A stretch of 47,563 bases of DNA from Phycisphaerales bacterium (GTDB lineage Bacteria; Planctomycetota; Phycisphaerae; Phycisphaerales; SM1A02). The stretch covers positions 1-47,563 of the forward strand of contig SIAD01000015.1 of assembly GCA_009691915.1 (NCBI GenBank), read 5' to 3'. The notes beneath the pieces are model-generated. The model ran no database searches. It was not told the origin of the DNA and saw only the letters and a program-made list of their open reading frames with translations. Shown here piece after piece: positions 14,806-47,387 of this stretch (positions are counted from its first letter, which is position 1; every line of letters begins with the position of its first letter). A program made the position numbers and the translations under genes.

Positions 14806-16461
14806 TCAGAACAGAAGCTGCATCTGCGCGCGGAGGACGAACTCGTCGGTCTGAGAGACGCGCCACCCTGTCGCCGGCACGGCGTACGAGGGATACACGG
14901 GTGTGATGCTCCAGCCCATATCCGCGGTGAACTTGACATCCTGTCCATCGATGTACCAGTTGGACCCGATCGTCACGAGATCCATGTGATGCTGCTCGAA
15001 GATGTAGTTCGCCAGGATCGTGTTCTGAACCACCGAGTTCCCGGAGTTTGAGGCGGTCGTGTGCATGTACTCGTAGCGGCCAAAGACTTCCCACTTGGGC
15101 GCGAGATAGTAGGAACCCTGCACCACGAATCCTAAAGCGTTCACATTTCCGGCCTCTCCGAATGTCTGCTGGTTGACATTGTTGACGAAGTAGGCGGCGT
15201 TCGAGTCAACATAGTTGTAGTACGCGCTTGCGAAGAGAGACGCGCCACCAAACTGCCAGGTGAAGTCTGTCGTGACTCCTAGCCAAGTGTTCTTGCTGTT
15301 GCCGGTCACGGATCCGGGTCCCTGGGTCAGAGAGAGAACTTTGGTCGGATCGGTCTGCTGCGCATTGATCGCCACGCCCCAGAGCCACCCGGGTTCCGTG
15401 CCATCGGGGCTCGTGAACTGGTCGAACTGCGACCAGCCGCCCTCGCCCTTCCAGTCGAACCGCGTCGTCATTCCCCAGATGACATTCTGCTGATACCACG
15501 GAGAATTGAGCGGCTGCGAACCAACAACCTGGGCGGGACCGACGATGTTGTCCATCCCGCCATCGTTGAGCGAGAATCGCCAGCGCGCTTCATTAGTCAG
15601 CCACTCGAGTTCGACGCCTTGCGTGTAGCCCATTCCATAGTGAAGCGAAACCAGTGAGCGGTCCACCGCCATCTGGTACTGCTCGAGCACCAGGAACTCA
15701 CGGCCGTACGGGGCGCGATACTGACCCATGCGAACTGACCAGTCGTCGGTCATGTTGATCCGTACCCAAGCATCAAGCAACTGGATGCCGCCCGATGTGG
15801 AACCGGTCACGAACGACGGCAGCGGCGTGTTGAGCGTGATCGGCGACTGATTCTGAGCAACTTGGATGCCGGAGTTCTGATTCTGTGTGAAGACCCCCTT
15901 CACCATGTACTGAATGTCGGGACTGATGACATGGCCCTGGGCCCAGAGCTCGACATTCTGAAGGTCGAACCCGTACCGCGTCGGAACAGGATCCCAGGTG
16001 ACTCTGGCGTTCGGGTCGATCTGTGATGGGCTGACATACTGGCCCTTCTGCGCGCTCATCACAAATCGAGTCTGAACAAGCCCGCCAACCTCCAACCGAA
16101 ATCGGTTGTCCGCGCTGGCGAGGAAGAACCCGTTGTCCCAGCCTGCGGTCGCGCCGGATCCTTGCAGCGATGTACGCGTCGCGCTGTCGGTGAGGATGTC
16201 CTCGACGAGTTCGCGCACTTCGGCGGCTCGCTCTTCGGTCAGCCATTGATCGCCCGCCTGAGCCTTCAGTTCAACGACTTGACCCTGAAGGTCGGTGTTG
16301 CGCTTCTCAAGGGCTTCCAGCCGTCGAGCCATATCGTCAATCTGACGACTGGTCGCGTCCTGAGTGACCTGTGGCGCCACCGCGCTTCCCGGCACGACCG
16401 CCTGCCCAAGAATCGATCCGCTGACGATCGCGGCTGCGATTGACGACGAGGCAAGGATCAT
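14806..16461 (-). CDS. outer-membrane porin with N-terminal coiled coil (porin 1)
   Basis: The 551-residue protein has a hydrophobic N-terminal segment (MILASSSIAAAIVSGS) that lacks the usual positive residues but is probably a signal peptide. A coiled coil follows (about 38-70, DMARRLEALEKRNTD), then a conserved block WLTEERAAEVRELVEDIL (about 74-91), then alternating aromatic beta-strands ending in terminal Phe (AQMQLLF), the signature of a Bam-inserted beta-barrel. It resembles the OprP/OprO phosphate-selective porin group. Substrate selectivity cannot be read. It shares the WLTEERAAE...SLQG.GAT block with porin 2 upstream, so the two are tandem paralogues. An in-frame stop just upstream fixes ATG 16461. 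Confidence 0.85.
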   Translation of the reverse strand: MILASSSIAAAIVSGSILGQAVVPGSAVAPQVTQDATSRQIDDMARRLEALEKRNTDLQGQVVELKAQAGDQWLTEERAAEVRELVEDILTDSATRTSLQGSGATAGWDNGFFLASADNRFRLEVGGLVQTRFVMSAQKGQYVSPSQIDPNARVTWDPVPTRYGFDLQNVELWAQGHVISPDIQYMVKGVFTQNQNSGIQVAQNQSPITLNTPLPSFVTGSTSGGIQLLDAWVRINMTDDWSVRMGQYRAPYGREFLVLEQYQMAVDRSLVSLHYGMGYTQGVELEWLTNEARWRFSLNDGGMDNIVGPAQVVGSQPLNSPWYQQNVIWGMTTRFDWKGEGGWSQFDQFTSPDGTEPGWLWGVAINAQQTDPTKVLSLTQGPGSVTGNSKNTWLGVTTDFTWQFGGASLFASAYYNYVDSNAAYFVNNVNQQTFGEAGNVNALGFVVQGSYYLAPKWEVFGRYEYMHTTASNSGNSVVQNTILANYIFEQHHMDLVTIGSNWYIDGQDVKFTADMGWSITPVYPSYAVPATGWRVSQTDEFVLRAQMQLLF

Positions 16462-16470
16462 CTGTCGAGA

Positions 16471-16476
16471 AGTCTA
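16471..16476 (-). promoter_or_regulatory. -10-like TAGACT before porin 1
   Basis: TAGACT, identical to the rrn -10, ends 9 bases before the porin 1 ATG. It lies downstream of the porin 2 terminator, so porin 1 needs its own promoter, and this is the best candidate. No -35 matches well. Confidence 0.45.
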
Positions 16477-16516
16477 GCATCACGCTTGGCGGACGCCACA
16501 TCCCATGTAGTTGCAA

Positions 16517-16548
16517 TGAAAAAGGGCCGACCCTTTCGGATCGGCCCC
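16517..16548 (-). terminator. intrinsic terminator of porin 2
   Basis: In the minus-strand RNA a 10-bp stem, GGGCCGAUCC / GGGUCGGCCC, closes a GAAA tetraloop (positions 16547-16524) and is followed at once by five U. The stem is complete when one G-U pair is counted. It lies about 75 bases after the porin 2 stop, so it should separate porin 2 from porin 1. Confidence 0.9.
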
Positions 16549-16619
16549 TTGCGTCTCTATCAGGTCGGGCGGAGATCGCTCCGTCCGACAGTCAAATCCT
16601 GGTCAAACCTGGTTCTAGA

Positions 16620-18062
16620 TCAGAACGCCAACTGGAGTTGGGTGATGATGTTGAACTGGTCCTTGGCGGCCGTGTTGTTGTCGGGCAGGTAGCCGGCACC
16701 AGTGAGGTTTATATTACCTCCTACATCAGTCAGCGAGATGCCGAACTGCGTCGTCCACTTGACATTGGATCCGGCATAGACATTCACGCCGAAGGTGACG
16801 AAGTTGTTGACATCGGTCACAACCGTGCCGGTGGTGGGGTTCACCGCGCCATTTTTCACATCCACCCACTCCCAGCGGCCGAAGCCCTCGAGAGTGTCGG
16901 TGAAGCGGTAGCCACCCTGCAAGACCATGCCGTAACTGTTGTACTTGGTGACAGGTCCGGCCGGTGTGTTCTCGGCGCCGTAGTTGGCGCCGACTAATGC
17001 CGCGCTGACGCTCATGCCACCAGACTTGTAGGTCGCATCAAGAGTCCAATCGAGAGCCCCAGTGGTTGTGGGCTGAGCACCAGCGGCGGGGACGGAGGCG
17101 CCGTAAACCGGCGAACTAACAGACGGATACCAAGCACCCGTCGCGGTTCCGCCACGGTTGTTGTAGTACTGAGCTGCAGCACCGACCATGAAGCCGGCCT
17201 CGTCGCTCTTCGCGGAACTCTCGGAGTCAAACTGGCCCCAAGCACCCATCGCCTTGAACTCAAAGCGTCCGGCAAGGGAGATGCTGTTGTTCCCATCTCC
17301 CGCCCAGTTACCGTTCTGAACGCGAGGGCCGTTGTTGTACGAACCGGTCGCGCGGAACTGGTCGCTCAGATAACTCGCCGCCACACCCTGGGTGTAGCCA
17401 CCCGAGAAGTAGTAGTCGACAACCGAACGCTCAGCCGTGAGCTGGGCGCCGTCATTGCGAAGCGACTCAGCCATGAATGGGGACTTGAACTGTCCGATCT
17501 TCACACTGAAACCGTTGCCGAAGTCCTTGGCACCCCAGGCATCCTGAAGCACCATGGCGCTAGCGACCGGCGTATAAGGATCGACCGTCGATCCATAGTT
17601 GAATCGGGCCGAATAGGTCCAGCTCGGATCAACGACATTGCCGGAGAAGGCCATTCCTGTGCGGCGGTTCTCGAAACCCCAGGTCGTGTTGGACACCTGA
17701 GCAGTACCGGCACTGTTGGCAGCCTGATGGTTGTAGGTGAAGCGGGCCTGTGCGAGGAAGCTGGCGTTCAGCTTGAAGTTTCCGTCGGCACTTGAGACGA
17801 AGAACCCGTTGTTGTAGCCCGAGGTCGCCGCCGTGCCCTGAAGGCTGGTGCGGGTCTCGGAATCGGCCAGAACATCCTTGACGAGGGACTTGATCTCGGC
17901 GGCGCGCTCCTCGGTGAGCCACTTGTCGCCATTCTGGGACTTGAGGGTGGCAACCTCGGCCTTGAGCTGAGCGATCTCGCTCATGGCATCGGTTCCCTGA
18001 GCGGACACGCCTGTGATGGCGAGACCACTCGCGAGAATTCCAACATACTTGGTGAGAGTCAT
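16620..18062 (-). CDS. outer-membrane porin (porin 2)
   Basis: A 480-residue porin with a clear signal peptide (MTLTKYVGILASGLAITGVSAQG), a short coiled coil (about 28-43), the conserved block WLTEERAAEIKSLVKDVL (about 49-66), and a beta-barrel ending in Phe (IITQLQLAF). It has its own promoter, a leader of about 150 bases with AGGAG 10 bases upstream of the ATG, and a strong terminator. This suggests a highly expressed single-gene unit, as expected for a major outer-membrane protein. It is a paralogue of porin 1, with closest similarity in the N-terminal 100 residues. The transported solute is unknown. Confidence 0.88.
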   Translation of the reverse strand: MTLTKYVGILASGLAITGVSAQGTDAMSEIAQLKAEVATLKSQNGDKWLTEERAAEIKSLVKDVLADSETRTSLQGTAATSGYNNGFFVSSADGNFKLNASFLAQARFTYNHQAANSAGTAQVSNTTWGFENRRTGMAFSGNVVDPSWTYSARFNYGSTVDPYTPVASAMVLQDAWGAKDFGNGFSVKIGQFKSPFMAESLRNDGAQLTAERSVVDYYFSGGYTQGVAASYLSDQFRATGSYNNGPRVQNGNWAGDGNNSISLAGRFEFKAMGAWGQFDSESSAKSDEAGFMVGAAAQYYNNRGGTATGAWYPSVSSPVYGASVPAAGAQPTTTGALDWTLDATYKSGGMSVSAALVGANYGAENTPAGPVTKYNSYGMVLQGGYRFTDTLEGFGRWEWVDVKNGAVNPTTGTVVTDVNNFVTFGVNVYAGSNVKWTTQFGISLTDVGGNINLTGAGYLPDNNTAAKDQFNIITQLQLAF

Positions 18063-18354: not shown

Positions 18355-19356
18355 TTACTTGTCACTCATCGACCCCGCCAATTCGACGCAGATACCCACG
18401 AGGGCCCGCTCTGAATCTGGTGCGCTGCCAGACTTCATTCGGAAGTCGCCTTGGATCGCAGCGTGGAGAGACGCAGCAGCTCTGGCCACTCCGAGCCGCC
18501 TAGCGCGGGAGAGGATTACGCCTGTCGAGGCGCCCCAGAGGCGCAGTTCCTTGGATATCTGTCCGTCACTTGCGCCGGATTGCGCAAGGCATGCAGCCGC
18601 GTGGATCTTGCGCGCCAAGTCGATCGCCGACCAGCTGATCATCACCTCGGGAGCCCGTGACACCCGCAGAAGGTCCACTACTTTTGCCGCTGTTTCCCTC
18701 GGAATTCCCGTCAGAATGGCTTCCTGGATCTCCCATGCCTGCTCCTCGCGACTGGCACCGACAAGGTCTATAACCGTGCCCCGATCGATTGCGGCTCTCC
18801 CGGATACCCCGACCGCCACGGCGAGTTTCCCGAGTTCCGAGTCGAGCCGCGCCAGATCAGTTCCGACCATATCCACCAGAATCGCCGCGGCCGCCGAGTC
18901 GATTGGAACTCTGTGCTGCTTCTCGCTTCGCCCGATGCACCACTTGACGGCTTCGGCTGGACCAGGCGCCTCGCACTTGAGCGCAATCCCGACCTTCGCC
19001 ACCAACTTGTCGAAGTTTCCAGGTCGCCAATTCTGCGTTCGCAGTAATAAAGTGGCCTCCTTCATAGGGGCGTCGGCGTACCGCTCCATTGCGCGCCGGC
19101 GCTCCTCGACCGCGAAGAACGCATCGGCGCTGTCGAGAGTCACGAGTTTGTGCGATGCCATCAGTCCGTATGAGCGAAGTTCATCGAGCACGACTGCCAA
19201 CTGAGCCGTAGTGCCATCGAAGGTGAACTCGTCAACGGCGCCGTGCTTCTCCTCGAGTGCCTCCCGAAGCCGACGCGTCCACTCAAGGCGCAGGAACGAG
19301 TCCTTCCCGTGGAGGAGCACGATCCGATGCTCTGCGCGTGGGCCGTGCGCGGTCAC
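18355..19356 (-). CDS. holA: DNA polymerase III subunit delta (clamp loader)
   Basis: Delta opens the beta sliding clamp within the clamp-loader complex. At 333 residues the length matches HolA (E. coli 343). The order fits the family: N-terminal RIVLLHGKDSFL with a degenerate P-loop-like fold, RTQNWRPGNFDKLV in the middle, VPIDSAAAAILVDMVGTDLARLDSELGKLA (H/DnaA-like helices), then the C-terminal collar domain. The frame remains open much further upstream, but there it is antisense to clpP. GTG 19356 is chosen because similarity begins a few residues later and TACGAT ends 6 bases before it; GTG 19392 is the alternative. It is divergent from clpP1 with about 55 bases between starts. Confidence 0.85.
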   Translation of the reverse strand: MTAHGPRAEHRIVLLHGKDSFLRLEWTRRLREALEEKHGAVDEFTFDGTTAQLAVVLDELRSYGLMASHKLVTLDSADAFFAVEERRRAMERYADAPMKEATLLLRTQNWRPGNFDKLVAKVGIALKCEAPGPAEAVKWCIGRSEKQHRVPIDSAAAAILVDMVGTDLARLDSELGKLAVAVGVSGRAAIDRGTVIDLVGASREEQAWEIQEAILTGIPRETAAKVVDLLRVSRAPEVMISWSAIDLARKIHAAACLAQSGASDGQISKELRLWGASTGVILSRARRLGVARAAASLHAAIQGDFRMKSGSAPDSERALVGICVELAGSMSDK

Positions 19357-19410: not shown

Positions 19411-20085
19411 ATGCAGACTCCAACCGATCCGTACGGCCTCGGCGCGCTGGGCGAGATGCCCGCAACGGGGGAGACGCTTTCCGCCGCGGGAGTTCCCATC
19501 AGCCCGAGGCTGTCCTCGAACTACCAGCGCACACGCGAGATGACCATTGACGAGCTGCTGCTTGAGAATCGCGTGGTGTTCCTCGTGGGAGAGATCAATC
19601 ATGCCTCGTCCGCACGAGTGATGATGCAGATGCTGTGGCTCGAGAGCCAGAAGCGCGGACAGGACATCAACTTCTATATCAACAGCCCCGGGGGTGCGGT
19701 GGATGACACGCTGGCGATCTACGACACGATGCAATTCATCAGCAGCGAGGTCGCGACAACCTGCATCGGACGCGCCTACTCGGGCGGCGCGGTGCTCCTC
19801 TGCAGCGGCCATCCCGGAAAGCGGACGATTCTGCCGCACGCGAAGGTGATGATCCATCAGCCCTATGGCGGGGTAACCGGTCAGACCACGGACATCCAGA
19901 TTCAAGCCGACCAGATCATCAAGACCAAGCGACTTCTCAACGAGATCATCGCACGACACTGCAAGCAGACCTTCGAGCAGGTGGCCAAGGACGGCGAACG
20001 CGACAAGTACTTCGACGCGCCTGAAGCGAAGGCGTACGGGCTCGTCGACGAGGTTGCCTCGTTCCCCGACAAGAGCAAGAAGTAG
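19411..20085 (+). CDS. clpP: ATP-dependent Clp protease proteolytic subunit, first paralogue
   Basis: Serine peptidase subunit that forms tetradecamers with Clp ATPases. The 224 residues from ATG 19411 (or 234 from ATG 19381) include a 40-residue N-terminal extension. The triad is complete with family spacing: S124 in RAYSGGAV, H149 in VMIHQPYGG, D198 in GERDKYFDAPEA. The serine context YSGGA differs from the usual AASMGA, while the glycine handle loop QPYGG is normal. First of three tandem clpP genes; no clpX or other Clp ATPase is in view. Confidence 0.92.
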   Translation: MQTPTDPYGLGALGEMPATGETLSAAGVPISPRLSSNYQRTREMTIDELLLENRVVFLVGEINHASSARVMMQMLWLESQKRGQDINFYINSPGGAVDDTLAIYDTMQFISSEVATTCIGRAYSGGAVLLCSGHPGKRTILPHAKVMIHQPYGGVTGQTTDIQIQADQIIKTKRLLNEIIARHCKQTFEQVAKDGERDKYFDAPEAKAYGLVDEVASFPDKSKK

Positions 20086-20117
20086 ATCCGGACGCGCAGC
20101 GACCATTTCTGCCTGTG

Positions 20118-20756
20118 ATGCCAATGACCCTGCTCGAAGACGACCCGATCCTGGTGCCCCATGTGATTGACTCGACCGGTCGCACGGAGCGCGAGTACGA
20201 CATCGTCTCGCGATTGCTGGCTGACCGCATCGTGATGTGCTCGGGGGAAGTCGAGTCGGAGATGGCTAATGCGATCGTGGCGCAGCTGCTGTATCTGGCG
20301 CACACCGATTCGACCGCGCCCGCGAGCATCTACATCAATGGCGAGGGTGGCAGCGTCAGCGACGGACTGGCGATCATCGACACGATGCGCGTGATGCCGT
20401 ATCCGCTGGCAACCTACATCGTCGGCAGCGCGCCAAGCATGATGAGCGTGATCGCCTGCTGCGGCACGAAGGGACAACGATTCGCGCTGCCGCACGCGTG
20501 GAACCTGATGCATCAGGGGCGGTACCTCGACTTGATCGAGGGCCAGGCCACTGATCTCGAAATCGAGGCGCGACACATGCTGCGCCTTGAGGAGCAATGC
20601 AACCTGCTCTATTCCGAGGCGACTGGCAAGAGTGTCGAGCAGATCGGCCGCGACTGCGACCGTGACCTGTGGCTCAACGCTCCCGAGATGCTCGCCTACG
20701 GCCTCATCGACCGGGTCATTGACCGACTGCCCGTCCCCGCACTCTGCAAGTATTGA
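20118..20756 (+). CDS. ClpP-family peptidase, second paralogue
   Basis: A 212-residue ClpP. S107 lies in GSAPSMMSV (usual AASMG), H132 in [10 protein letters not shown], and an Asp at about 183 in [12 protein letters not shown]. The triad therefore looks complete, but the residue after the Ser and the glycine-rich handle loop (QPxGG) are altered, with GRYLD in its place. The ATG at 20118 follows a GTG. It is 32 bases after clpP1 and 29 before clpP3, so the three are probably co-transcribed. It shares [16 protein letters not shown] with the third paralogue, so these two arose from a later duplication than the split from the first. Confidence 0.9.
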
Positions 20757-20785
20757 ACCTAAGGATTGAACCCAAGGACCGAACC
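20752..20785 (+). repeat. short direct repeats in the clpP2-clpP3 junction
   Basis: ATTGAACCTAAGG and ATTGAACCCAAGG follow one another, then a partial third copy ACCGAACC. They span the clpP2 stop and the clpP3 ribosome binding site, and each full copy carries AAGG(A). The second AAGGA lies 8 bases before the clpP3 ATG. Probably a local duplication. Confidence 0.5.
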
Positions 20786-21388
20786 ATGAGCATCATCCCC
20801 ATCGTCATCGAAAAAACTGGCCGCGGCGAGCGCGCGTATGACATCTATTCCCGCCTCCTCAACGACCGAGTCATCTTCGTCGGCGGGCAGGTCTCCGACG
20901 CGATGGCCAACCTGGTCGTCGCCCAGCTGCTCTTTCTGGCCAATGACAATCCAAAAGCGGAACTGTCGCTGTATGTGAACTGCCCCGGCGGCAGCGTGAC
21001 CGCAGGGCTGGGAATCGTGGACACCATTCGATTCATCCCCTGCCCTGTGGCGACCTACATCATCGGACAGGCCGCAAGCATGGGCAGCGTCATCGCGTGC
21101 TGTGGAACCAAGGGGCGACGGTTCGCGCTGCCCAACGCCGAGAACCTGATGCACCAGCCACTCCTTGGCGGCGTGCTGGAAGGGCAGGCCACGGATCTCG
21201 AGATCGAGGCTAGGCACATCCTCAGACTGCGCGACCAGATCTACGGAATCTACGCGGCGCAGACGGGTCAAACACGAGAACGCATCGCCGACGACTGTGA
21301 GCGGAACAAGTGGCTCAGCGCACCCGAGATGCTGTCGTACGGACTCGTCGACGGAGTGCTCGACAAGCTCCAGCCGAAGCCAGCGTGA
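20786..21388 (+). CDS. ClpP-family peptidase, third paralogue, with Asn in place of the catalytic Asp
   Basis: A 200-residue ClpP with the canonical nucleophile context GQAASMGSV (S98) and H123 in [10 protein letters not shown], 25 residues later as expected. At the third triad position the sequence is [11 protein letters not shown], so N174 stands where ClpP has Asp (ERD.(F/W)LSAPE). Listeria ClpP1 has the same Asp-to-Asn change, is poorly active alone, and works in a mixed complex with ClpP2. By analogy this subunit may act in a heteromer with its neighbours. ATG 20786 has AAGGA 8 bases upstream. Its last 74 bases overlap the convergent secreted-protein gene. Confidence 0.9.
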
Positions 21389-22035: not shown

Positions 22036-23049
22036 ATGGCGGAGTCGCAGAACGCAACGATTGAGCAGCACGCGGTCCGCTTCCAGAGAGATTTCAATCG
22101 GGTGCGCACAGAAGTTCAGAAGGCTGTCGTGGGCCACAAGGAAGTCGTTGATGGGGTCCTCGTAGCGCTCTTCGCCAACGGCCACGCGCTCATCGAGGGA
22201 GTGCCGGGCTTGGGCAAGACCCTGCTGGTTCGATCGCTCTCTCAGGCGCTGTCGCTAAATTTCAATCGCATCCAATTCACGCCTGACCTCATGCCGGCGG
22301 ATGTCACAGGCACGACGATCGTCGTCGAGAGTGCCACTGGCAGGGACTTTCAGTTCCGCAAGGGTCCGGTGTTCACGCAGATTCTCTTGGCCGACGAAAT
22401 CAATCGCGCGACGCCGAAGACTCAGTCGTCGCTGCTGGAAGCGATGCAGGAGCGAAGTGTCACGGTCGGCGGCGTGACCCATGTGCTGGACAAGCCGTTC
22501 CTAGTGATGGCGACTCAGAACCCGATCGAGCAGGAAGGGACTTATCCCCTGCCCGAGGCGCAGCTCGATCGGTTCTTCTTCAAGCTTCAGGTCGGGTACT
22601 CGACGCGCGAGGACCTCGCCGAGATTCTGAATCGGACGACGGCCGGCGACCCTCCGGCGATCGAGCGGGTTCTCGATGGGCCGACGACACTCTCCCATCA
22701 GAAGCTCGTTCGCCATGTGCGCATTGCGCCGCATGTGCAGGACTACGCGGTGCGGCTCGTGCTCTCGACCCATCCCCAGGGACAGTTCGCGACACCGCTG
22801 ACCAATCGGTACCTGCGGTTCGGCGCGAGCCCGCGCGCGGCGCAGACTCTAGCGCTTGGTGCCAAGGTGCACGCGCTGCTGGATGGACGGGGCAGTGTCT
22901 CGGTCGACGACATAAAGAAGTGCGCTCTTCCTGCGCTGCGGCATCGCGTCCTCCTGAACTTCGAAGGGGAGGCCGAAGGAGTCAACCCTGATTCCATCAT
23001 CCAGAACGCCCTCGAGACCCTCCCCGCCGACGCCCGAGTCCCGGTCTAG
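22036..23049 (+). CDS. MoxR-family AAA+ ATPase
   Basis: A 337-residue AAA+ chaperone-like ATPase. Walker A is GVPGLGKT (55-62), Walker B ILLADE (116-121) followed by INRATPKTQSSLLEAMQE, sensor 1 MATQNP (158-163), and the arginine-finger region PEAQLDRFFF (173-182). MoxR proteins usually sit beside DUF58, VWA or transglutaminase genes and help assemble metal or envelope complexes. None of these partners follows here; the next gene is a degenerate HATPase protein. The ATG has TAGGAT 6 bases upstream. Confidence 0.93.
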   Translation: MAESQNATIEQHAVRFQRDFNRVRTEVQKAVVGHKEVVDGVLVALFANGHALIEGVPGLGKTLLVRSLSQALSLNFNRIQFTPDLMPADVTGTTIVVESATGRDFQFRKGPVFTQILLADEINRATPKTQSSLLEAMQERSVTVGGVTHVLDKPFLVMATQNPIEQEGTYPLPEAQLDRFFFKLQVGYSTREDLAEILNRTTAGDPPAIERVLDGPTTLSHQKLVRHVRIAPHVQDYAVRLVLSTHPQGQFATPLTNRYLRFGASPRAAQTLALGAKVHALLDGRGSVSVDDIKKCALPALRHRVLLNFEGEAEGVNPDSIIQNALETLPADARVPV

Positions 23050-26471: not shown

Positions 26472-26480
26472 CGAAAGGTG

Positions 26481-27980
26481 ATGGATTGGCCGCTGCGCGA
26501 TGGAGCGATCGTGGCACTGGTGTGCGCTGCGGTGTCGTGGATACTTGTTCGGATCACGCGGCGGATTGCCGCACGGCGCGGGTGGACGGCCCCGGTTCGA
26601 GCGGATCGTTGGCATTCCGAGGCCACCGCCCTCTTCGGCGGAGTGGGGATCATCGGGGGTCTCCTGATTGGAATCGGATTTGGCCGCGGTCTGTTCGAGG
26701 GATTCCGTGACGCGACCAGCGCCAACGGCGACCTCGCCCTCGCCGTAGTCGCCGGAGCCGTGTTGAGCGCGGGGATCGGGCTCTTGGATGACATCGTTCA
26801 CTTCCGAGCCGCGACGAAACTCGCTGCGCAGGTTGGATGCGCCTGCGCATTCCTGTGGGCGTGCGGTGGCGTCGAGATCATCGGGAACCCCGCCGTCGAC
26901 ACCGCCGTGGGCGTCGTGTGGATCGTGGCGATGATGAACGCCGTCAACATGCTCGACAACATGGATGGTGTCGCGGCAAGTGCGTCGACGATTGCGCTTC
27001 TGGGGATCGGTGTGGCATCCTCCGTGGCGGCGCCTGGTTCGTTTGTCGCGGTCGTGGCGCTTGCTGGGGCAGGGGCGACTGCAGGATTTCTCGCGCAAAA
27101 CCTGCCGCGTGCGAAGGTCTTCATGGGAGACAGCGGATCCCTGATGCTTGGATTCCTGATCGCGGCGCTGGCCTTGGTGTGGGCGAGGCCCATTGACCCG
27201 GGCAGCGGCACGCTGTCCATGGCGCAGGGGTGGATGGCGACCGCGCTTGCGGCCGTTGGCTTCGGCTTCGCGCCGCTCACTGACCTGGTGGTCGTCTCGA
27301 TCACTCGAGTGAGGAAAGGACAGAGTCCGATGACCGGTGGGCGCGATCACACGACGCACCGACTCGCTCAGAGAGGATGGACGGGGCGCGGAATCGTCGC
27401 GGCGGTCGCGACGACGAGCGCGATTGCGGCTACGGTGGCGACACTGTCGGCGTTGGGAACGGTCGCAATGGCGGTGGCCCTCGGGGTGCTTGTCCTCGGG
27501 CTCCTTGGGTTGGCGGGGAGTCTGATGCGCATGGCAATTGGCATGGACAATGCCGCGCGTCTCGCGCGCGCCGACACGGCGCACCGTCGAGAGGCCTACG
27601 AGCCGTTCGTCAAAGTGGCCATAGATGTCGCGCTCATCGCGGCGGCGATGAACCTTGGGTATCTCGTACGCTGGGAGTGGACGATTCCTCCTGAACTCAC
27701 CAACTCGGTCGGCTGGAGCCTGCCGGTGGTGATCGCCTGCTGCGTGAGCGCCAACTCCTTGGCCGGAACCTACTGGAGGCGGTGGCGCCGCGCTTCGTGG
27801 CGCGAGGTCGGAGTCTCGCTGGCGGCGACCCTTGCGGGCAGTGCGCTCTCAGTTGTCGCAGTCGCCGCGCTCTGGAGCCCGGAACGACTCTTCTCGCGCG
27901 TGGCGATGGCACTCTTTGTCGTCGCGTATCCCGTGTTGTCGCTGGTGGTCATGGGTACCTTTCGCGCACGATGGCGCTGA
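26481..27980 (+). CDS. GT4 glycan-phosphate transferase fused to a CapD-like membrane domain
   Basis: A 499-residue polytopic membrane protein. The first 350 residues are a MraY/WecA-type polyprenyl-phosphate sugar-1-phosphate transferase: GLLDD (about 100-104), NAVNMLDNMDG (about 153-163), VFMGDSGSLMLGF (about 213-225) and GGRDHTTHRL (about 286-295). It would start a lipid-linked glycan. From about 370 on there are four more helices like the N-terminal membrane domain of CapD/FlaA1-type enzymes (VAIDVALIAAAMNLGYLVRW, TYWRRWRRASWREVG), but the dehydratase domain that normally follows is missing. A separate SDR gene begins 10 bases before this stop. ATG 26481 and GTG 26478 are both possible starts. 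Confidence 0.85.
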   Translation: MDWPLRDGAIVALVCAAVSWILVRITRRIAARRGWTAPVRADRWHSEATALFGGVGIIGGLLIGIGFGRGLFEGFRDATSANGDLALAVVAGAVLSAGIGLLDDIVHFRAATKLAAQVGCACAFLWACGGVEIIGNPAVDTAVGVVWIVAMMNAVNMLDNMDGVAASASTIALLGIGVASSVAAPGSFVAVVALAGAGATAGFLAQNLPRAKVFMGDSGSLMLGFLIAALALVWARPIDPGSGTLSMAQGWMATALAAVGFGFAPLTDLVVVSITRVRKGQSPMTGGRDHTTHRLAQRGWTGRGIVAAVATTSAIAATVATLSALGTVAMAVALGVLVLGLLGLAGSLMRMAIGMDNAARLARADTAHRREAYEPFVKVAIDVALIAAAMNLGYLVRWEWTIPPELTNSVGWSLPVVIACCVSANSLAGTYWRRWRRASWREVGVSLAATLAGSALSVVAVAALWSPERLFSRVAMALFVVAYPVLSLVVMGTFRARWR

Positions 27981-28930
27981 AATCTCTGGTAACTGGTGGC
28001 GCGGGGTTCATCGGCAGCCATCTGTGTGAGGCACTTGTGGCGCGCGGAGACGAGGTCGTCGCGCTTGACAACCTGTCCACCGGCGCGCGCGCCAATCTGG
28101 AGACGATCGCCGATCATCCGCGGTTCCAGTTGATTGAGGGGGACATCCTCAACGAACGGACGGTCGAAGGGGCCGTAGCGGGCATGGACCGGGTCTATCA
28201 CCTCGCCGCTGCGGTCGGCGTGAAACTGGTCATGGAGCGGGCGATCTCGACAATTGTCACGAACACGCGCGGAACGGAGAATGTTCTAGAGGCGTGCGCG
28301 GCGACGAAGGCCCGCGTACTCATCGCCAGCAGCTCCGAGGTGTATGGAAAGATGGGGGAATCGCAGGCGCGACCGCTGGCTGAAGACGATGACTGGCGTC
28401 TTGGCTCGACGAGCACGAGGCGATGGTCCTATGCCTGCACCAAGGCGATCGACGAGTTCCTTGCGCTCGCCTATCGCGATGAACGGGGGCTCGAGGTGGT
28501 GATCGTCCGGCTGTTCAACACGGTCGGATCTAGACAGAGCGCCAACTACGGGATGGTTCTACCCGCGTTCGTGAAGGCCGCGCGCGAGGGGCGCGACCTC
28601 GTTGTGCACGGCGACGGGACGCAGACGCGGTGCTTCAACTATGTGACAGACACGGTCGAGGCGATCCTGCGGCTGATGGAGGCGCCAGCTGCAGTCGGTC
28701 AGGTCGTAAATGTTGGGGGCGACCGGGAACTCAGCATCAATGATCTCGCCTCGCGGGTCATTGCGAGGGCGCGGGCCTCGGTCAAGGTTCGGCACATTCC
28801 CTACGCGACAGCGTACGGACGCGGATTCGAGGACATGGAACGGCGGACGCCCGACCTATCGAAACTGCGTCGGCTGATCGGCGAGACGCGCTGCCGGACG
28901 ATCGATGAGATCATTGGCCAGGTGTGGTGA
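27971..28930 (+). CDS. NAD-dependent sugar epimerase/dehydratase (extended SDR)
   Basis: A 319-residue enzyme with N-terminal TGGAGFIGSH (about 8-17) binding NAD(P), acidic ALDNLSTG, SSSEVYG (about 120-126), and catalytic Y154xxxK158 in SYACTKA. The later RLFNTVGSRQ and GDGTQTRCFNYVTD are typical of UDP-glucuronate decarboxylase / UDP-glucose epimerase relatives acting on nucleotide sugars. The exact reaction cannot be told. Its ATG lies inside the end of the GT4 gene, so translation is coupled. It presumably makes or modifies a precursor for the polysaccharide handled by the operon. Confidence 0.88.
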   Translation: MALKSLVTGGAGFIGSHLCEALVARGDEVVALDNLSTGARANLETIADHPRFQLIEGDILNERTVEGAVAGMDRVYHLAAAVGVKLVMERAISTIVTNTRGTENVLEACAATKARVLIASSSEVYGKMGESQARPLAEDDDWRLGSTSTRRWSYACTKAIDEFLALAYRDERGLEVVIVRLFNTVGSRQSANYGMVLPAFVKAAREGRDLVVHGDGTQTRCFNYVTDTVEAILRLMEAPAAVGQVVNVGGDRELSINDLASRVIARARASVKVRHIPYATAYGRGFEDMERRTPDLSKLRRLIGETRCRTIDEIIGQVW

Positions 28931-29002
28931 GTTGGAGGCGGAGGCAATGGCGTTACCGCTAGGATGCCACCGCGCCGCACGCCCGTGGAGGCGACAAATC
29001 CC

Positions 29003-31708
29003 ATGAACACTCTTGTTGCTGCACTCGTCATTGCACTGTTGGGGCCGGATGTCGAGTCGAAGCCAATAGCCCCTCCCCCGCCCGAGCCACAGGCTGCCGC
29101 GACGGTGCCGGCTGCCGCGACGGTGCCGGCTGCCGCGACGGTGCCGGCTGCCGCGACGGTGCCGGCTGCCGCGACGGTCCCAGCACCGCCGATCCCGGAG
29201 GTGGATGCGTTCGGATACGACGCATTCCAGTCGTCCTCTGGGGCGATCACAGGCGGGCCGATCGATGACCAGTATCTCCTGAGCCCCCGCGACGAGGTCG
29301 TGATTTCGATCTGGGGGGCCATGAGTGAAACGCTGAACCTTGTGGTGAGCGATCAGGGGTTTCTAGAACTTCCAGAAGACGCCGGACGAATCCAGACCAA
29401 CGGAGTGACCCTGCGGGAGTTGCAGCCACTGGTCGTTCGGGCGTTGTCGCAGATCTACGCGGGGTACATCAATTCGTTGGATGAGTCCAAGTCCACTGCC
29501 TTCGTCGATGTCCGCCTTGGAAAGATCCAACCGCTCCTTGTGTATGTGGTTGGCGAAGTCAACAAGCCCGGGGCCCACGCGGTGAGTGCGGCGGTAGCGA
29601 ATGTCATCAATGTGCTCACCAATGCTGGAGGCGTTCGGGCGACGGGAACGCTGCGTGAAGTAAAGATCCGCCGAAACGACGGCAAGGTCGATACCGTCGA
29701 CCTCTACCGCTTCCTCCAAACCGGCGAGATCGACTTCAAGGAGATCCGGCTCCAGCCCGGCGACTATGTCATCGTGCCGCTCAAGAACAAGTCAGTGAGG
29801 GTGAGCGGCGAGGTGCGTCGACCGACGAGCTACGAGCTTGTGGGGAGCGAGGGCATGCGAGAACTTCTGGCGCTGGCGGGCGGAACGACGCCTGACGCGT
29901 ACCTCAAGCAGGCGCAGTTGCGACGGATCATCCCAAGTGTCGGTGAGACATTCCTCGACCTTGACCTTGAGGCGATCCTCGGCAAGCCCGAAGGAAACTT
30001 CCCGCTCGCCGACAAGGATCTCCTGACGATCGGGAAGAGCGTCCAGGTGAGGAAGCCGATAGTGTCGATCCGCGGTGAGGGGATCACGAGGCCGGGAACT
30101 TACGAGTGGACCCCAGGAATGCAGCTCTCGGGCCTGATTGCCAAGGGTGAAGGGCTCCGTGAGCATGCGTACCTCGAGCGCGCTGATCTCATCCGCACCG
30201 AGGATGACTTCACGAAGAGTCTGACAATTTTCCCGCTTGCCGGGCTCTATGAGAAGGACCCGTCGGGAGATATCGTCCGCACGGCGACCAGCGAACTTGA
30301 CTTCCCTCTGCGCGAGATGGATGAGGTTCTAGTCCAGTCAGGTTGGGGGATGGGCGGCAATGACAAGAGCGTGACGCTGAGCGGACATGTCAAGGAAACG
30401 GGATCGACAGTGCTCGCCACGGGAATGACCTTGTACGACCTGATCTTCACGCGCGGCGGCTTCCAGGACTCCGCCTTCGCCAATGGCACATACATGGATC
30501 TTGCGCATATCACGCGAAGAGTCCCGGGCACGATCCGTACACGGCTCATCGCCTTTGACCTCGGCGCTCTCCTCAGAAAGGATGCGAGCACAAACATGCC
30601 GCTTGAGGACGGCGACGAAGTACGGGTCTACTCGTTCGAGGACTTGACGACCGCGGCAACAGTGCGAGTCGAAGGGCTTGTGCGCAAGGGAGGAACATTC
30701 CCGTTCTCGCAGGGGATCACTTTGGAGGATCTCGTAGTGATGGCTGGAGGGCTCGTCCCGCAGGCGGTCAGACCCGAGGCGGTGATCGCACGGCGGACCG
30801 GTGGCGGAACAGAGTCTGACCTGACGGCGACCATCGTGGTGGCGATTGGTCCGTCGGGCACCACGAGTCCAATGCGAACGCCGCTCTTCGTCGATGACCG
30901 AGTCACAGTCCGCCATCAGGTCGGATGGGATCCCCTGTCGGTGGCGACACTCGGAGGTCAAGTCATCTACCCGGGCAGCTACCCGCTCAGCCGCACGGGG
31001 ACACGGATCTCGGAACTCGTAACGCTTGGGGGTGGACTTGCGGTCAATGCGTATCCCCTGGGAGCTGTGCTGCGACGAGGCGCAGATCTTGGCCTCATCA
31101 ATGAGTCAGAACAGTCCGAGGCGACGATATTGACGATCGACCTGCCAGCGGCACTCGCTTCGCCAGCAGGACCAGAAGACCTGCTCCTGCTCGATGGTGA
31201 CCGCCTCTTCATTCCAGAGAACCCCGGCTCAGTGGGGGTAACCGGCGCTGTGAAGCGCCCACTTGTCCTCCAATTCCGCGAGGGGATGCTCCTCTCCGAT
31301 GCCATTGCCCTCTGCGGCGGTCTGCTGATCAAAGCCGACCTGACCAGAGTGACGGTGCAGGCGCCCAGCGGCGCAACGCGACTTGTCGGCGAGGACGAGA
31401 ATCCTGTCCTCGTAGCTGGCAGCGTCGTCGAAGTACCTCTGCAGCGCGAGAGTGAACGGATGCGAACGGTCGAGATCAAGGGATCGGTCGCCAAGCCCGC
31501 GATCGTCCAGTTCACGGACGACGCAACGCTCGGGTACTACATCGCGCTCTGCGGCGGATTCACGGCGCAGGCGGACCTCGACAAGATCGTCGTGATTCAC
31601 CCGGACGGTCTGCTGGTGGCGAGTGAGAAGGGCGTGGCGTTCAATCCGATCGTGCCGCCAGGCAGCATCGTCGTCGTGACGGCCCGTCCCACCTCCGAGG
31701 CGAAGTGA
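29003..31708 (+). CDS. polysaccharide export protein with multiple SLBB domains
   Basis: A 901-residue protein starting at ATG 29003, which has GGAGG about 12 bases upstream; an earlier ATG at 28964 gives no signal peptide. A short hydrophobic leader (MNTLVAALVIALLG) is followed by a Pro/Ala repeat. Next comes a Poly_export (Wza-type) domain with LLSPRDEVVISIWG (about 88-101). About eight SLBB-like units follow, each opening with a V.V.G.V..PG.Y strand: VVGEVNKPGAH, VSGEVRRPTSY, IRGEGITRPGTY, LSGHVKETGS, VEGLVRKGGT, LGGQVIYPGSY, VTGAVKRP and IKGSVAKPA. Wza has only two. It likely forms an outer-membrane or periplasm-spanning export channel. Its stop overlaps the start of the Wzz-like gene (TGATG). 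Confidence 0.88.
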   Translation: MNTLVAALVIALLGPDVESKPIAPPPPEPQAAATVPAAATVPAAATVPAAATVPAAATVPAPPIPEVDAFGYDAFQSSSGAITGGPIDDQYLLSPRDEVVISIWGAMSETLNLVVSDQGFLELPEDAGRIQTNGVTLRELQPLVVRALSQIYAGYINSLDESKSTAFVDVRLGKIQPLLVYVVGEVNKPGAHAVSAAVANVINVLTNAGGVRATGTLREVKIRRNDGKVDTVDLYRFLQTGEIDFKEIRLQPGDYVIVPLKNKSVRVSGEVRRPTSYELVGSEGMRELLALAGGTTPDAYLKQAQLRRIIPSVGETFLDLDLEAILGKPEGNFPLADKDLLTIGKSVQVRKPIVSIRGEGITRPGTYEWTPGMQLSGLIAKGEGLREHAYLERADLIRTEDDFTKSLTIFPLAGLYEKDPSGDIVRTATSELDFPLREMDEVLVQSGWGMGGNDKSVTLSGHVKETGSTVLATGMTLYDLIFTRGGFQDSAFANGTYMDLAHITRRVPGTIRTRLIAFDLGALLRKDASTNMPLEDGDEVRVYSFEDLTTAATVRVEGLVRKGGTFPFSQGITLEDLVVMAGGLVPQAVRPEAVIARRTGGGTESDLTATIVVAIGPSGTTSPMRTPLFVDDRVTVRHQVGWDPLSVATLGGQVIYPGSYPLSRTGTRISELVTLGGGLAVNAYPLGAVLRRGADLGLINESEQSEATILTIDLPAALASPAGPEDLLLLDGDRLFIPENPGSVGVTGAVKRPLVLQFREGMLLSDAIALCGGLLIKADLTRVTVQAPSGATRLVGEDENPVLVAGSVVEVPLQRESERMRTVEIKGSVAKPAIVQFTDDATLGYYIALCGGFTAQADLDKIVVIHPDGLLVASEKGVAFNPIVPPGSIVVVTARPTSEAK
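29093..29182 (+). repeat. five tandem 18-bp repeats encoding AAATVP
   Basis: The unit GCTGCCGCGACGGTGCCG is repeated four times perfectly, and a fifth copy differs only in its last bases. In frame it adds an Ala-Ala-Thr-Val-Pro linker just after the signal segment of the SLBB protein. The near-identity of copies suggests a recently expanded array that may vary in copy number between strains. Confidence 0.9.
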
Positions 31709-32790
31709 TGGAGACGACTCAGCCGCCGCCCGATTCCGATGACACCCTGCGCGAACCAGACCCCATCCGACTTCTGGCACTCGTCAATGTGCTGCTGAAA
31801 CACCGTTGGTGGATCGTGGGGCTGACTGTGCTTGCCCTCACCCTCGGTGTGGTGTTTGCGCTGGTCGCTTCGGAGAGTTGGACCTCGACCGCGAAGTTCC
31901 TCCCGACGCAGTCCGCGGGGATCATTGGTCGCATGAGTGAGATGGTCGGCGGTGCATCGATTGAGAGTCATACCGATGGCGCATCCTCGTCCGATTACTA
32001 CATCGCGCTCGTGCAGAGTCAGGCGTTCCTTTCGACGCTCGCCGCCCATCCCTTCGACGATGGGCCTACCGGGAAGCGGCCACTGTTTGAGATCATGGAG
32101 GCAATCGGCAAGACGCCCCGCGAACAGACACTCAGGGCCGCAGAGTCGCTATCGAAGTCCGTGACGATCGTGGCATCGAAGACGACTTGTGCGCCCAACG
32201 CGCCTCGACTCGTCACCCTGAGCGTCGTGGCGGGTTCGCCCACGCTTGCCGCCGCCATTGCACAGGAGGTTCTCGCCCAGATTCAGAAGCACAATTTCGA
32301 TGTGCGCGGCTCAAAGGCAAAGCAGAACCGCGAGTTTGTCGCCGGTCAGCTCAAGGGGGCTGACGAACTCCTACAGAAGGCCACCGACGCTCTTGCCCTG
32401 TTCTCGTCGCGGAACCGAAAGATAGCGACGCCAAGCCTTCACGCTGAGCATGACAAACTCTCGCGAGCCGTGCGAGTACAGGAAGAGGTCTTCGTCACGC
32501 TCATGAAACAGTTCGAACTTGCCAAGATTGAAGAGCAGGAGAGCCGGGAGGCCATCGAGATCATCCAACCGCCCGAGCCCCCACTGACTCGGACGAGCCC
32601 GAAGCGCACACAGACCGTGCTGCTGGCGGGTTTCCTCGGAGTGTTTGAGTCCTGCGTCGGGGTGATCGTGATCGAGCGAATCCGCAGTGCAGACCCCCAT
32701 TCCGAGGATGCGAAGGAGTTCAGGTCTCAGGTCGGTCGGACGGTGGATGACCTGCGCCGACTGGTGCTTCTTGGCCCGCGGGCGAAGTAG
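31708..32790 (+). CDS. Wzz-like chain-length / polysaccharide co-polymerase protein
   Basis: A 360-residue inner-membrane protein with a helix at about 34-54 after a short cytoplasmic N-terminus (DPIRLLALVNVLLKHRWW), a large periplasmic part with coiled-coil character, and a second helix (about 309-328) preceded by PPEPPLTRTSPKR, the PxxP region typical of Wzz proteins. It lacks a fused tyrosine kinase. It overlaps the SLBB gene by one base, so the pair would form a Wzc/Wzz-Wza-type export machine. The last 50 bases overlap a decayed pyrE on the other strand. Confidence 0.85.
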   Translation: METTQPPPDSDDTLREPDPIRLLALVNVLLKHRWWIVGLTVLALTLGVVFALVASESWTSTAKFLPTQSAGIIGRMSEMVGGASIESHTDGASSSDYYIALVQSQAFLSTLAAHPFDDGPTGKRPLFEIMEAIGKTPREQTLRAAESLSKSVTIVASKTTCAPNAPRLVTLSVVAGSPTLAAAIAQEVLAQIQKHNFDVRGSKAKQNREFVAGQLKGADELLQKATDALALFSSRNRKIATPSLHAEHDKLSRAVRVQEEVFVTLMKQFELAKIEEQESREAIEIIQPPEPPLTRTSPKRTQTVLLAGFLGVFESCVGVIVIERIRSADPHSEDAKEFRSQVGRTVDDLRRLVLLGPRAK

Positions 32791-43871: not shown

Positions 43872-43877
43872 AGCCTA
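43872..43877 (-). promoter_or_regulatory. -10-like TAGGCT before ppa
   Basis: TAGGCT ends 11 bases before ATG 43860, and its TAG is the stop codon of the tricorn gene. No Shine-Dalgarno is present. Confidence 0.35.
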
Positions 43878-46800
43878 GCGGGCTGCGGCTACCGGCTTCG
43901 GCCCGAGTGTGCCGACAAGATTCTCGACCGCAGCTCTCAGCTGGCGATCGTTCGAAGATGCCTCATCCTGAGGGGTCTGCTCTACGAGGATGTCAGGGAC
44001 TGCGCCGTGCAGTTCCATGTCGGTGCCGTCGGGGAGATACCAGCCGCGAGTCGGCATTCTAATGGTGGTTCCGTCGAGAAGCGATGCGGAACCAGTCGAA
44101 ATCACCCCTCCGTAGGTGGGCATTCCGACTAGGGTTCCGCGGCGCAGGGTCTTGAACGCGTGCGCGACGATCTCGGCATTCGAGAAACTCTTCTCGTTGC
44201 AGAGCATGTTGACCGGTCCGGCGAACCGTTGAATGAACAGACGATCCTGGGGATAGCCGTCGTGGTGGGTCGGGTCCGACCCGCGCGGCACGGTGTACGC
44301 ATGCACGGGAGCGCAGATCGACGCGAGGAGTCGGTCGGCCGTCCAGCCACCTCCGTTGTTACGGACATCGATCACGAGTCCTTCCTTGCCATCGCAGGCT
44401 GCGTAGAGATCGCGCTCGAACTCGTCGAGTGATTCCTGCCCCATCCCCTCGATGTGGACATAGCCGAGTCGGCCGCCAGACCACTCGTCGACAAGCCGCG
44501 CGTTGCGCTCCTGGGTGGCGCGATATCCGAGTCGGCTGATCGCGCCATCGCTCACGGGGATGATGGCAGTCTCAAATGAGAGGACACCGCGGTCGGGAGT
44601 CGCTCGCTCGACGGAGAAGACAACCTCACGACCGAGTGTTCCCTCCATCCGCGACGAGAGCGTGTCGGAGGGGAGAATCGGTGTGAAGTCGACCGCCGTG
44701 ATGACATCGCCCTCCCGAAGCGCAGTCTTGGCGATGGCTGCGGGCGACTCGGGGGTGATCTTGTCGATGCGCAGTCCCGTCGGCGTCGAGCTGACTTCGA
44801 CGCCGATTCGGCCCTGCGGCAGGACGGTTCTTCCGGGAGTTGCCGGACTCCGAATCCCGAGATGGCTCGCGTTGAGTTCCCCGAGGAGGCGGTTGGCGAC
44901 ATGGTCGAACTCCGATGCCGTGCGCGCGTGGGTCGCAAGTTCTCCGTAGCGCGCGCCCAGCGACTCCCAGTCGAGTCCCTTCATCGAGGGGTGGTAGAAG
45001 TTCTCGCCCATCAGTCGGACTGCCTCGGCAAATTTTTCTTCGACGAGCGCCGCGCGGTCGACGGCGATCGAGGCATCGACTTCGATTGTGTTGCTGGTGT
45101 CTGACTTGCTCGAGCCATCCCCCGATGACGCCGTCGACCCGCCGCCGGTGGTCGGGGTCAGCTGCCCCTTCCCGGAGCTGAGCGTAATCAGCTTGTCGCC
45201 AGTGAGGGTGATCCCCTGCACGCTCACGCGGGGTCCTAGTTTTTTCTGCCCGGTTCCATCCCAGCCGATGACGAAGAGCCCGCCGTCGGACGGGTCGGTG
45301 CCTGTGCCGATGCCTGTGAAGTAGAGCTTGTCGCCGGCGGGGGCGATCTGGAGATTCCCTTCATTGCCGGGAAGCTGCGTCACGCGACGAACTCTGCGAT
45401 AGGCGTCGCCAAGTGCGAGGGTCGGCGCGGTGGCAGGCGCGTCGTCCATCTCGGCCTTCTCTGACTTCTCCGGTTTCTCGGCGGTCTCGGTCTTGTCCGC
45501 GGTCTCGGTTGAACTGTCCTTGGCACTGGAAGCGCCCAGCGGCTTGCGCTTCTTGACCGTCTCAGTCGCATCCTTGAAGTACTTCTCGAGCTCGAACTTG
45601 GCCATGCCGTCGAGCGACTTGTCGAGAAAGACACACCAGACATCCTGTTCTTCGTTGGTCCGCTCTGAGACAAAGGCGAGGATCCGACCGTCCGCGGACC
45701 ATCGCGGGGAGTGGTCGTTGTCCGGATGGCGGGTTACATTGACCGCCGGTGCTGAGTGGTCTGCGGGAACCACAAAGATGTCGCTGTTGAAATCGCGGTC
45801 GGTCATCGTGTAGGCGAACCATCGTCCGTCGGGACTCCAGCGCAGTTCGGTGTCGGGACTCCATCCTTCAGCGACGGTATGAACCTCCTTGGTCGCGAGG
45901 TCCATGGACATGATCGTGCCCCGCCCACGGCGGAACGCTAGGCGCTTGCCGTCGGACGACGGCGTTGGCTGACGGTCATTGAATGGCCCTTCGACCAGCG
46001 ACTTCGTCTCGAAGCGGATCGCCTGGCTCCACCGCTCACTCTTGGGAGGCGCCTTCGCCTTGGGACGCGCCTTCGGCTTGGATTCTTCAGGCGCAGGCGC
46101 TGCGGCTGGTGGTTCGACAGGTGCGGGCGCGTCAATCACAGGTTCTGCTGGTGGCGGCTCGAGCACCTTCGCCGTGTCCGCAACTTCCGCGCGGGTCGTC
46201 GCGACCGAAGCGACCATGATCGACTCGCCGCCGTCCTGATCGCTGGTGAAGTACAGCGTCTCCCCATCGGGACTCCACGCAATCTCGTGTTCGCGTGCGA
46301 TCGCGGAGGTCACTCGGCGCGCGGCAATCTTTCCCTCAATCGGTTTGATCCATAGATCACCAAACGCCACGATGGCGGCGCTCTTGCCATCTGGGTTGAG
46401 GGCTACCTCGGTCGCCGCGGAGGAGAGCGCACGAACCTCCTGCTGATCGATGGTGTCGTCAGGCGCAGTGAACGAAAGCGCCACAGGTTGCGCGCCCGCC
46501 ACATCGAGATCGAGTCGGTAGAGCCTGTCCCAGACGGTGAAAAATGCGCGGCGTCCGTCGCCACTCACCGACAAGTCCTTCACATCTGCGTTCTCGAACC
46601 CAGTGAGTCTGCGCGCGGGCGCGAATGGCTTCGCATCCTGAACAAAGACATTGACTGTCGCGAGATCACGATCTGAGAGGAAGAGGAAGGAATTGTCGTT
46701 CCGCCAGCGACCCCACCCGTCGTTCCCGTCGTGCTCTGTGAGCCGCTGGAACTGGGCATCCGGGTTCGCTTTGGGGTCATACAGCCAGACATCGCAGTCG

Positions 46801-47387
46801 TCGCTGCCGCGATAGCCGCGACGGGCCCAGTCGCTTCCGCCCCGTTCGAAGAGGTAGCGCGATCCATCAGGCGATGGCACCGCCCCAATTCCGAACGCAT
46901 CGTGTCGGCGAATCGGTTCGCCGCCCGAGAGCGGCACGAAGTACGGGCGCGCCGCCCTGAAGAAGTTGTACTCGGGAGTGCCGAAGAACTCGAGTGCCGT
47001 CTCGCCGGTGGGAGTCTTGCCGAATCCCGAAAGCGAGAGTGCCTCGTCAGTGTTGGTCACGCGCTTCAGCGACTGGCCGTTCGAGTCGATCAGGTAGAGA
47101 TTGCGCCCACCGTCGCGCGTGCTCTCGAAGGCGATCATCGATCCGTCGGGACTCCACGCGCTGCGTGCCTCGTCCGCCGGATGGCTTGTCAGGCGCGTTG
47201 CGGCGCCGCCCGTTCCCGGAGCCTTCCAGAGATCGCCGCGCCAGGTGAAGGTGACCCACTGTCCATCGGGACTCGCGGCGGGAAGTCGAGGTAGGTCGAT
47301 TTCGGAAGCGAATGCAAACGATGCGAATTGAAGAGTGACGCCGAGGCAGATCATCCGACAAGCACGGCAAGAGAGGCTCTTCTTCAT
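43875..47387 (-). CDS. tricorn protease-like S41 peptidase
   Basis: A 1170-residue exported peptidase. The signal peptide ([27 protein letters not shown]) leads to PD40/WD40-like propeller repeats (about 30-690: [65 protein letters not shown]). Two low-complexity inserts interrupt it: Pro/Ala/Lys-rich at about 430-470, and Glu/Lys/Ser/Thr-rich at about 615-650. The catalytic half has an S41 N-terminal cap, ELNASHLGI with the candidate His, and a PDZ domain ([19 protein letters not shown]...). The core has [25 protein letters not shown] and the nucleophile region [16 protein letters not shown] (about 1064-1079). It likely degrades peptides in the periplasm. Confidence 0.93.

Follow-up and report, generated by a model that had tools for sequence, protein, structure and literature searches.

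A tandem clpP locus of Phycisphaerales with a conserved Ser-His-Asn subunit likely encodes a heteromeric Clp core

We found that three tandem clpP genes of a Phycisphaerales bacterium likely encode a heteromeric Clp core, one subunit of which has Asn in place of the catalytic Asp. Within the family of this bacterium the Asn is the rule, and wherever it occurs among the ClpP sequences that we compared it is accompanied by Glu at position 138 (171 and 138 are E. coli ClpP numbers throughout). The window, that is, the whole stretch of 47,563 nucleotides that was analysed, carries the three genes (A, B and C) intact and head to tail on its + strand, with spacers of 29 (A-B) and 29 (B-C) bases. The original prediction of three tandem clpP genes, the third with Asn, was borne out by the open reading frames, the PF00574 matches and the triads. 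With PF00574 scores of 225 (A), 191 (B) and 227 (C) bits against a cut-off of 20.2, all three belong to the ClpP serine protease family. The features are as follows.

18355..19260, - strand: holA (DNA polymerase III delta), TIGR01128, 115 bits; divergent neighbour of clpP
19411..20085, + strand: gene A (clpP1 type), by PF00574 and alignment; Ser124 at 19780-19782, His149 at 19855-19857, Asp198 at 20002-20004, Gln at position 138 at 19903-19905
20115..20756, + strand: gene B (a lineage-specific duplicate of C), by PF00574, B profile and tree; Ser at 20436-20438, His at 20511-20513, Asp at 20664-20666, Glu138 at 20565-20567, Arg in place of Leu125 at 20520-20522
20786..21388, + strand: gene C (clpP2 type, Asn triad), by PF00574 and alignment; Ser98 at 21077-21079, His123 at 21152-21154, Asn174 at 21305-21307, Glu at position 138 at 21206-21208

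Alignment gave the same triads as had been read from the sequence at the outset: S124/H149/D198 in A, S107/H132/D183 in B and S98/H123/N174 in C. The B residues are counted from ATG 20118; each is one higher from GTG 20115, for which ATG 20118 and 20124 are alternative starts. N174 of C (codon AAC) falls in the column of E. coli Asp171, so that A and B have the Ser-His-Asp triad of the PF00574 family and C does not. Ser-His-Asn members are already known, Listeria ClpP1 being one according to the available text of PMC5361862. Two further peculiarities pointed out earlier are likewise present: the unusual YSGGA around the Ser of A, which lies in GRAYSGGA, and the missing QPxGG handle of B, which reads HQGRYLD where A has HQPYGG. 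In addition, B has NGEGG where A and C have N[SC]PGG.

As for the surroundings, holA lies near clpP in 35 of 56 fetched loci of the window's family, and its product had no match in a Pfam profile search. A scan of the locus for promoters and terminators returned nothing exceeding chance. Downstream of clpP, a MoxR-type AAA ATPase is encoded at 22036-23049 (+), and 16 of the 56 family loci have related genes in the flank that was fetched. The window also contains two adjoining Porin_O_P proteins (14806-18062, -), polysaccharide export genes (26478-32790, +; glycosyl transferase family 4, epimerase, SLBB/Poly_export and Wzz) and a Tricorn-like protein with PD40 repeats, Tricorn_C1, PDZ and Peptidase_S41 domains (43875-47387, -).

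Conservation of N174 among orthologues was the check proposed originally, and Asp in close relatives would have refuted the original reading; the Asn proves to be conserved. In clpP loci fetched from 61 genomes of the window's family, all 56 full A genes have Asp, and 54 of 56 full-length C genes have Asn (2 have Asp), so Asn174 is not a chance substitution. Only 5 B genes were found in this sample. Thus, A and C are the usual pair of the family, with Asn as the ordinary state of C, and B is an added, unusual gene. In a scan of a named collection, C has Asn in 17/17 planctomycete records, and the remaining 63 loci, from other phyla, have Asp. The closest named records are MAGs of Phycisphaerae and further Planctomycetota. 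Among other families of the order, Asn is found in f2 (3/3), f3 (1/1) and f4 (5/5); however, the related families f5 (7/7) and f6 (12/12) use the same kind of genes with Asp. Additional genomes agree, with Asn in two of f2 (G061, G066), Asp in one of f5 (G064) and Asn in G449 of f7, a family of the same class. Outside the class, 38/38 distinct rows of canonical-type ClpP have Asp, and Asn occurs in 3/20 rows of the second paralogue, the ASA type. We also built a tree of C- and B-type sequences (118 rows) with the N/D column removed; several of its deep branches are below SH-aLRT 95. If the outgroup roots it, three N/D changes are needed: Asn arose once, at the base of the class, and Asp came back twice (f5 plus f6; g26 C plus B).

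Two observations belong with this history. First, loci of genus g26 (L035, L036, L181, L183-L186, L194-L196, L198, L199) have full Ser-His-Asp triads in all three clpP genes; their C has reverted to Asp together with His138, and their B has Phe138. The g26 C genes group with B (SH-aLRT 87 in the 118-row tree), and 7 of their 11 departures from the C consensus are a B consensus residue. The C-terminal part of g26 C is about equally close to B and to other C genes. Gene conversion of g26 C by B was therefore considered, but these signs are suggestive only. Second, eight genomes of the window's own genus lack any clpP match. We read these as assembly breaks and not as loss of clpP, because the adjacent holA is missing (G042, G226, G248, G365), partial (G272) or at a contig end (G302, G285 and G309, the last on a contig of 8793 bases).

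The most telling feature of the Asn is its coupling with position 138. The 520 aligned rows, including parts of the listed loci (59 from one listing, 30 plus 40 from another), were reduced to 460 distinct cores by removing 55 duplicate cores and 5 rows gapped at 97, 138 or 171. Glu138 is present in 132/132 Asn171 cores and in 18/328 Asp171 cores; 17 of the latter are B and one is an f6 C gene. Among the Phycisphaerae C rows, which include some genomes fetched twice, column 138 tracks the N/D state best of all columns: 102/102 Asn rows have Glu138, and the 31 Asp rows have Gln (17), His (13) or Glu (1). After thinning to 267 rows, the information shared between column 138 and the N/D state is 0.73 bits out of at most 0.84, against 0.34 for the next column. 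The other sources of Asn, planctomycete ASA-type paralogues and a Listeria-ClpP1-like Bacillota type, always have Glu138, and Listeria ClpP1 itself (4jcq) shows both residues in the alignment. Across 398 genomes of the class, NF011089, tried as a marker of the Listeria type, had no match above its cut-off, and sub-cut-off loci were used. Conversely, Glu138 has gone where Asp returned, namely in the C genes of f5, f6 and g26, which took Gln or His, and in L329, L263 and L240, with one f6 gene as the exception. The ASA-type Asn forms one clade, within which the latter three loci are the Asp returns (Thr138, His138 and Gln138, respectively). In the open-access literature that we searched, we found no statement of a 171-138 coupling and nothing on Phycisphaerae ClpP. 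The Bacillota Listeria-ClpP1-like subunits (L330-L334, L367, L368) and the planctomycete Asn-type ASA paralogues (loci such as L246, L275, L405) form one group (98/98), which suggests a shared or transferred origin.

Strong by count, the coupling falls short of phylogenetic significance because N/D transitions are few (two gains of Asn and several losses): for the sign tests, the supported branches of the 267-row tree provide 4 independent pairs (p = 0.125) and a 74-row tree provides 3 (p = 0.25), every differing pair going in the expected direction. This scarcity, together with the occurrence of Asp-Glu combinations, is what could be said for a neutral lineage change in which the Asn has no functional meaning and Glu138 was inherited along with it. 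We regard such an explanation as very improbable, considering that not one of the 132 distinct Asn cores, drawn from two distinct ClpP types, lacks Glu, that Glu was lost at nearly every return of Asp, giving way to Gln or His in the C genes of f5/f6 and g26, and that residues 171 and 138 form a known contact (available text of PMC12383707 and PMC12493191).

The nature of that contact suggests how a Ser-His-Asn triad might work. In E. coli ClpP, Asp171 bonds His122 and, on the adjacent monomer, His138, as described in excerpts of PMC12383707. For the N. meningitidis pair His145-Asp178, which we equate with 138/171 from its location and description, excerpts of PMC12493191 and PMC9035409 describe a contact within the ring and a switch of activity with pH, protonation turning ClpP off. 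In the Asn subunit, the Asn171 amide would bond the neighbour's Glu138 and the Asn oxygen would face His122; Glu138 would thus supply the missing negative charge and complete the triad in trans. If so, C should cut poorly unless the handle helices of the finished ring are ordered. The same would account for the behaviour of Listeria ClpP1, in which, according to the accessible part of PMC5361862, N172 selects an inactive heptamer when the protein is alone and is aligned in the heterocomplex. Against this reading, the N172D mutant described there, which keeps the Glu, is more active and tetradecameric, and in B all 17 distinct cores of genera g1, g17 and g45 combine Asp171 with Glu138. Asp plus Glu is thus tolerated, and the partnership of Glu138 with Asn is not strict. 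Single-chain models of C and B have the ClpP fold (pLDDT 86.5 and 83.0), with ClpP as the best PDB match (TM 0.86 and 0.81 by query length). Their handles are of lower confidence, with pLDDT blocks of 72 and 71 in C and 57 and 78 in B, and as monomers the models are uninformative about the ring.

If intra-ring here too, the contact also bears on which subunits could share a ring. The pairs of A (Asp-Gln) and C (Asn-Glu) would each be self-compatible, and in a ring containing both A and C an Asp would be placed opposite a Glu; the pair would therefore favour homomeric rings and fits stacked homomeric rings as in Listeria. Tentatively, and with less than even confidence, one may go further and see in Asn-Glu a second wiring of the active site (Ser97-His122-Asn171...Glu138') that forms an intra-ring code together with Asp-Gln/His, B joining such a core with a mixed code and, through Arg125, a new cleavage preference. 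Such a ClpP would not be crippled; its cutting would be turned on only with an ordered ring and handle helices, and the two-pair code would favour homomeric rings in cells with several ClpPs. The self-compatibility of A and C might also be taken to mean that A, B and C each form a homomeric protease of their own, B and C serving under different conditions. This we consider improbable: the pair argues for rings, and not for whole barrels, of a single subunit; Listeria, Mycobacterium and Streptomyces, with two ClpPs each, stack unlike rings as far as the available sources describe them; and A has no docking region.

The N-terminal region, which docks the unfoldase in other species (available parts of PMC9823225 and PMC5361862), differs sharply between the genes. 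C keeps the canonical E8, R12, E14, R15, D18, S21 and R22 in 74/74 non-g26 rows, A replaces the canonical residues, with M17 in 83/83 rows, and B keeps most of the region; these row counts include some genomes fetched twice. As C keeps the docking region, it is the likely docking subunit that carries the Asn, the reverse of the arrangement in Listeria. The columns of the hydrophobic pocket, which we take to be residues 62, 90, 92, 112, 114 and 189 of E. coli ClpP, were inspected as well; the docking argument is based on the N-terminal region.

The partners of such a core are encoded elsewhere in the genome. The assembly (2.27 Mb, 34 contigs, 95.9% complete) yielded no full ClpP gene besides A, B and C, and a fourth match is partial and weak (24.6 bits, in a 601-residue frame). 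A related oddity was seen in genome G042, where L094:2390-3913 encodes a protein of 500-odd residues with a CLP_protease domain (79.6 bits) and an N-terminal half that looks coiled-coil-like by eye; 7 other genomes of the family sample have similar matches. No Clp ATPase adjoins the clpP genes, just as the original prediction had noted for ClpX and ClpA. The three Clp ATPases found are all on other contigs: ClpX on C18 (zinc finger, an RIGF loop read by eye, 588 bits to NF003745), a ClpC-like protein with a UVR motif on C7 and a ClpB-like protein on C9. Taken together, these data lead us to favour, with somewhat better than even confidence, a Clp core built from different subunits. C would dock unfoldases through its N-terminal region and cut with its trans-completed Ser-His-Asn triad; A, with a full triad and no docking region, would be the main cutter in a ring stacked on C; ClpX and the ClpC-like ATPase would feed substrates to the core. 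B is a later duplicate of C.

Gene B is rare. A B profile run against 400 genomes of the order gave 27 matches of at least 358 bits, all others listed having at most 327; the carriers belong to genera g1 (11), g17 (3), g26 (10) and g45 (3). B is present in 11/11 g1 genomes with any clpP match and in 3/15 g45 genomes with clpP matches. In the tree, B is one clade (99) nested in the C genes of the window's family (96), next to g26 C (87), so it is a later, lineage-specific duplicate of C with a single origin and with Asp restored. On the A-gene tree its presence and absence need 6 changes, at least 3 of them forced by starred branches, and B was therefore lost or moved several times. Within g1, B has dN/dS of at most 0.141 across 21 pairs, indicating purifying selection, compared with at most 0.070 for A and 0.080 for C; dS is saturated in many of these pairs and infinite in some.

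Besides Asp171, B has Gly-Arg for Pro124-Leu125 (QGR) in 24/24 distinct cores. Each of its 29 aligned rows replaces Lys146 by Glu and Met149 by Cys, and B of g1, g17 and g45 also has Gly for Ser65 and Pro for Ala96. In E. coli ClpP, substrate is bound by the Leu125 backbone, and the oxyanion hole is made by Gly68 and Met98 (excerpts of PMC12383707). The Gly-Arg replacement would alter the substrate-binding edge, and most likely B brings a cleavage preference of its own or takes the place of C in a part of the particles. Such remodelling of oxyanion and binding edge might instead indicate a non-cutting structural or regulatory subunit resembling ClpR, consistent with NG[QVEA]GG for NSPGG, AP for AA before the Ser and QGR for QPL in g1, g17 and g45, and with the low-confidence handle block (pLDDT 57) of the B model. 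We find this rather unlikely, because none of the 29 aligned B rows has lost Ser, His or Asp, and NSPGG and AASM are intact in the g26 copies; B thus differs from ClpR-like subunits, which lose triad residues, and even C keeps Ser and His. It is conceivable, if doubtful, that all three proteins enter one particle, the three-component core suggested originally, for instance with B mixed into the C ring. The genes are tandem, co-directional and closely spaced, B and C share the docking region, and Glu138 of B would fit Asn171 of a C neighbour. However, Asp171 of B would face Glu138 if its other neighbour were B or C, and most relatives lack B altogether.

Like Listeria monocytogenes ClpP1/ClpP2, the locus pairs a ClpP type whose catalytic Asp is replaced by Asn with a full-triad partner, and ClpP1 (4jcq) and gene C both combine Asn171 with Glu138. 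The parallel with Listeria ClpP1 that had been drawn from the Asn therefore holds for this residue but not for docking: in the available text of PMC5361862 the N-terminal chaperone motif is missing from the Asn subunit, whereas here the Asn-bearing C keeps it and the Asp-bearing A lacks it. Nor does the earlier picture of a mixed ClpP1/ClpP2 ring agree with that text, which describes two stacked homoheptameric rings. The accessible parts of two papers differ on whether ClpX docks on Listeria ClpP1, a legend in PMC9035409 having it on either ring and PMC5361862 not. Moreover, it is the ASA-type paralogue found in other planctomycetes with which Listeria ClpP1 groups (98/98), and not gene C.

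Actinobacterial ClpP1P2 is similar in having two adjacent clpP genes and a docking subunit that cuts little (excerpts of PMC9765437 and PMC4416901): in Streptomyces ClpP1 cuts and ClpP2 docks (PMC9765437), and in M. tuberculosis chaperones dock on ClpP2 (PMC4416901). However, both Streptomyces triads are Ser-His-Asp (PMC9765437), and in the actinobacterial systems the reduced activity is not encoded in the triad and a third tandem gene of type B is lacking. In the mixed core of Pseudomonas plecoglossicida ClpP1P2, too, one subunit has a substitution at the third triad position, but there the triad is Ser-His-Pro, with Pro in the subunit without the docking region (available text of PMC12900304). 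Thus, the locus represents a variant of the known multi-subunit Clp core, and its wider interest lies in the 171-138 pairing. Listeria ClpP1, with its truncated triad, has hitherto been treated as an odd case; in the lineage studied here Asn is the normal state, and its occurrence in the putative docking subunit separates two traits that are joined in Listeria. The constant Glu138 offers a concrete handle on how a Ser-His-Asn ClpP works and why it needs assembly, and the Asn-Glu pairing suggests how mixed Clp machines may be wired.
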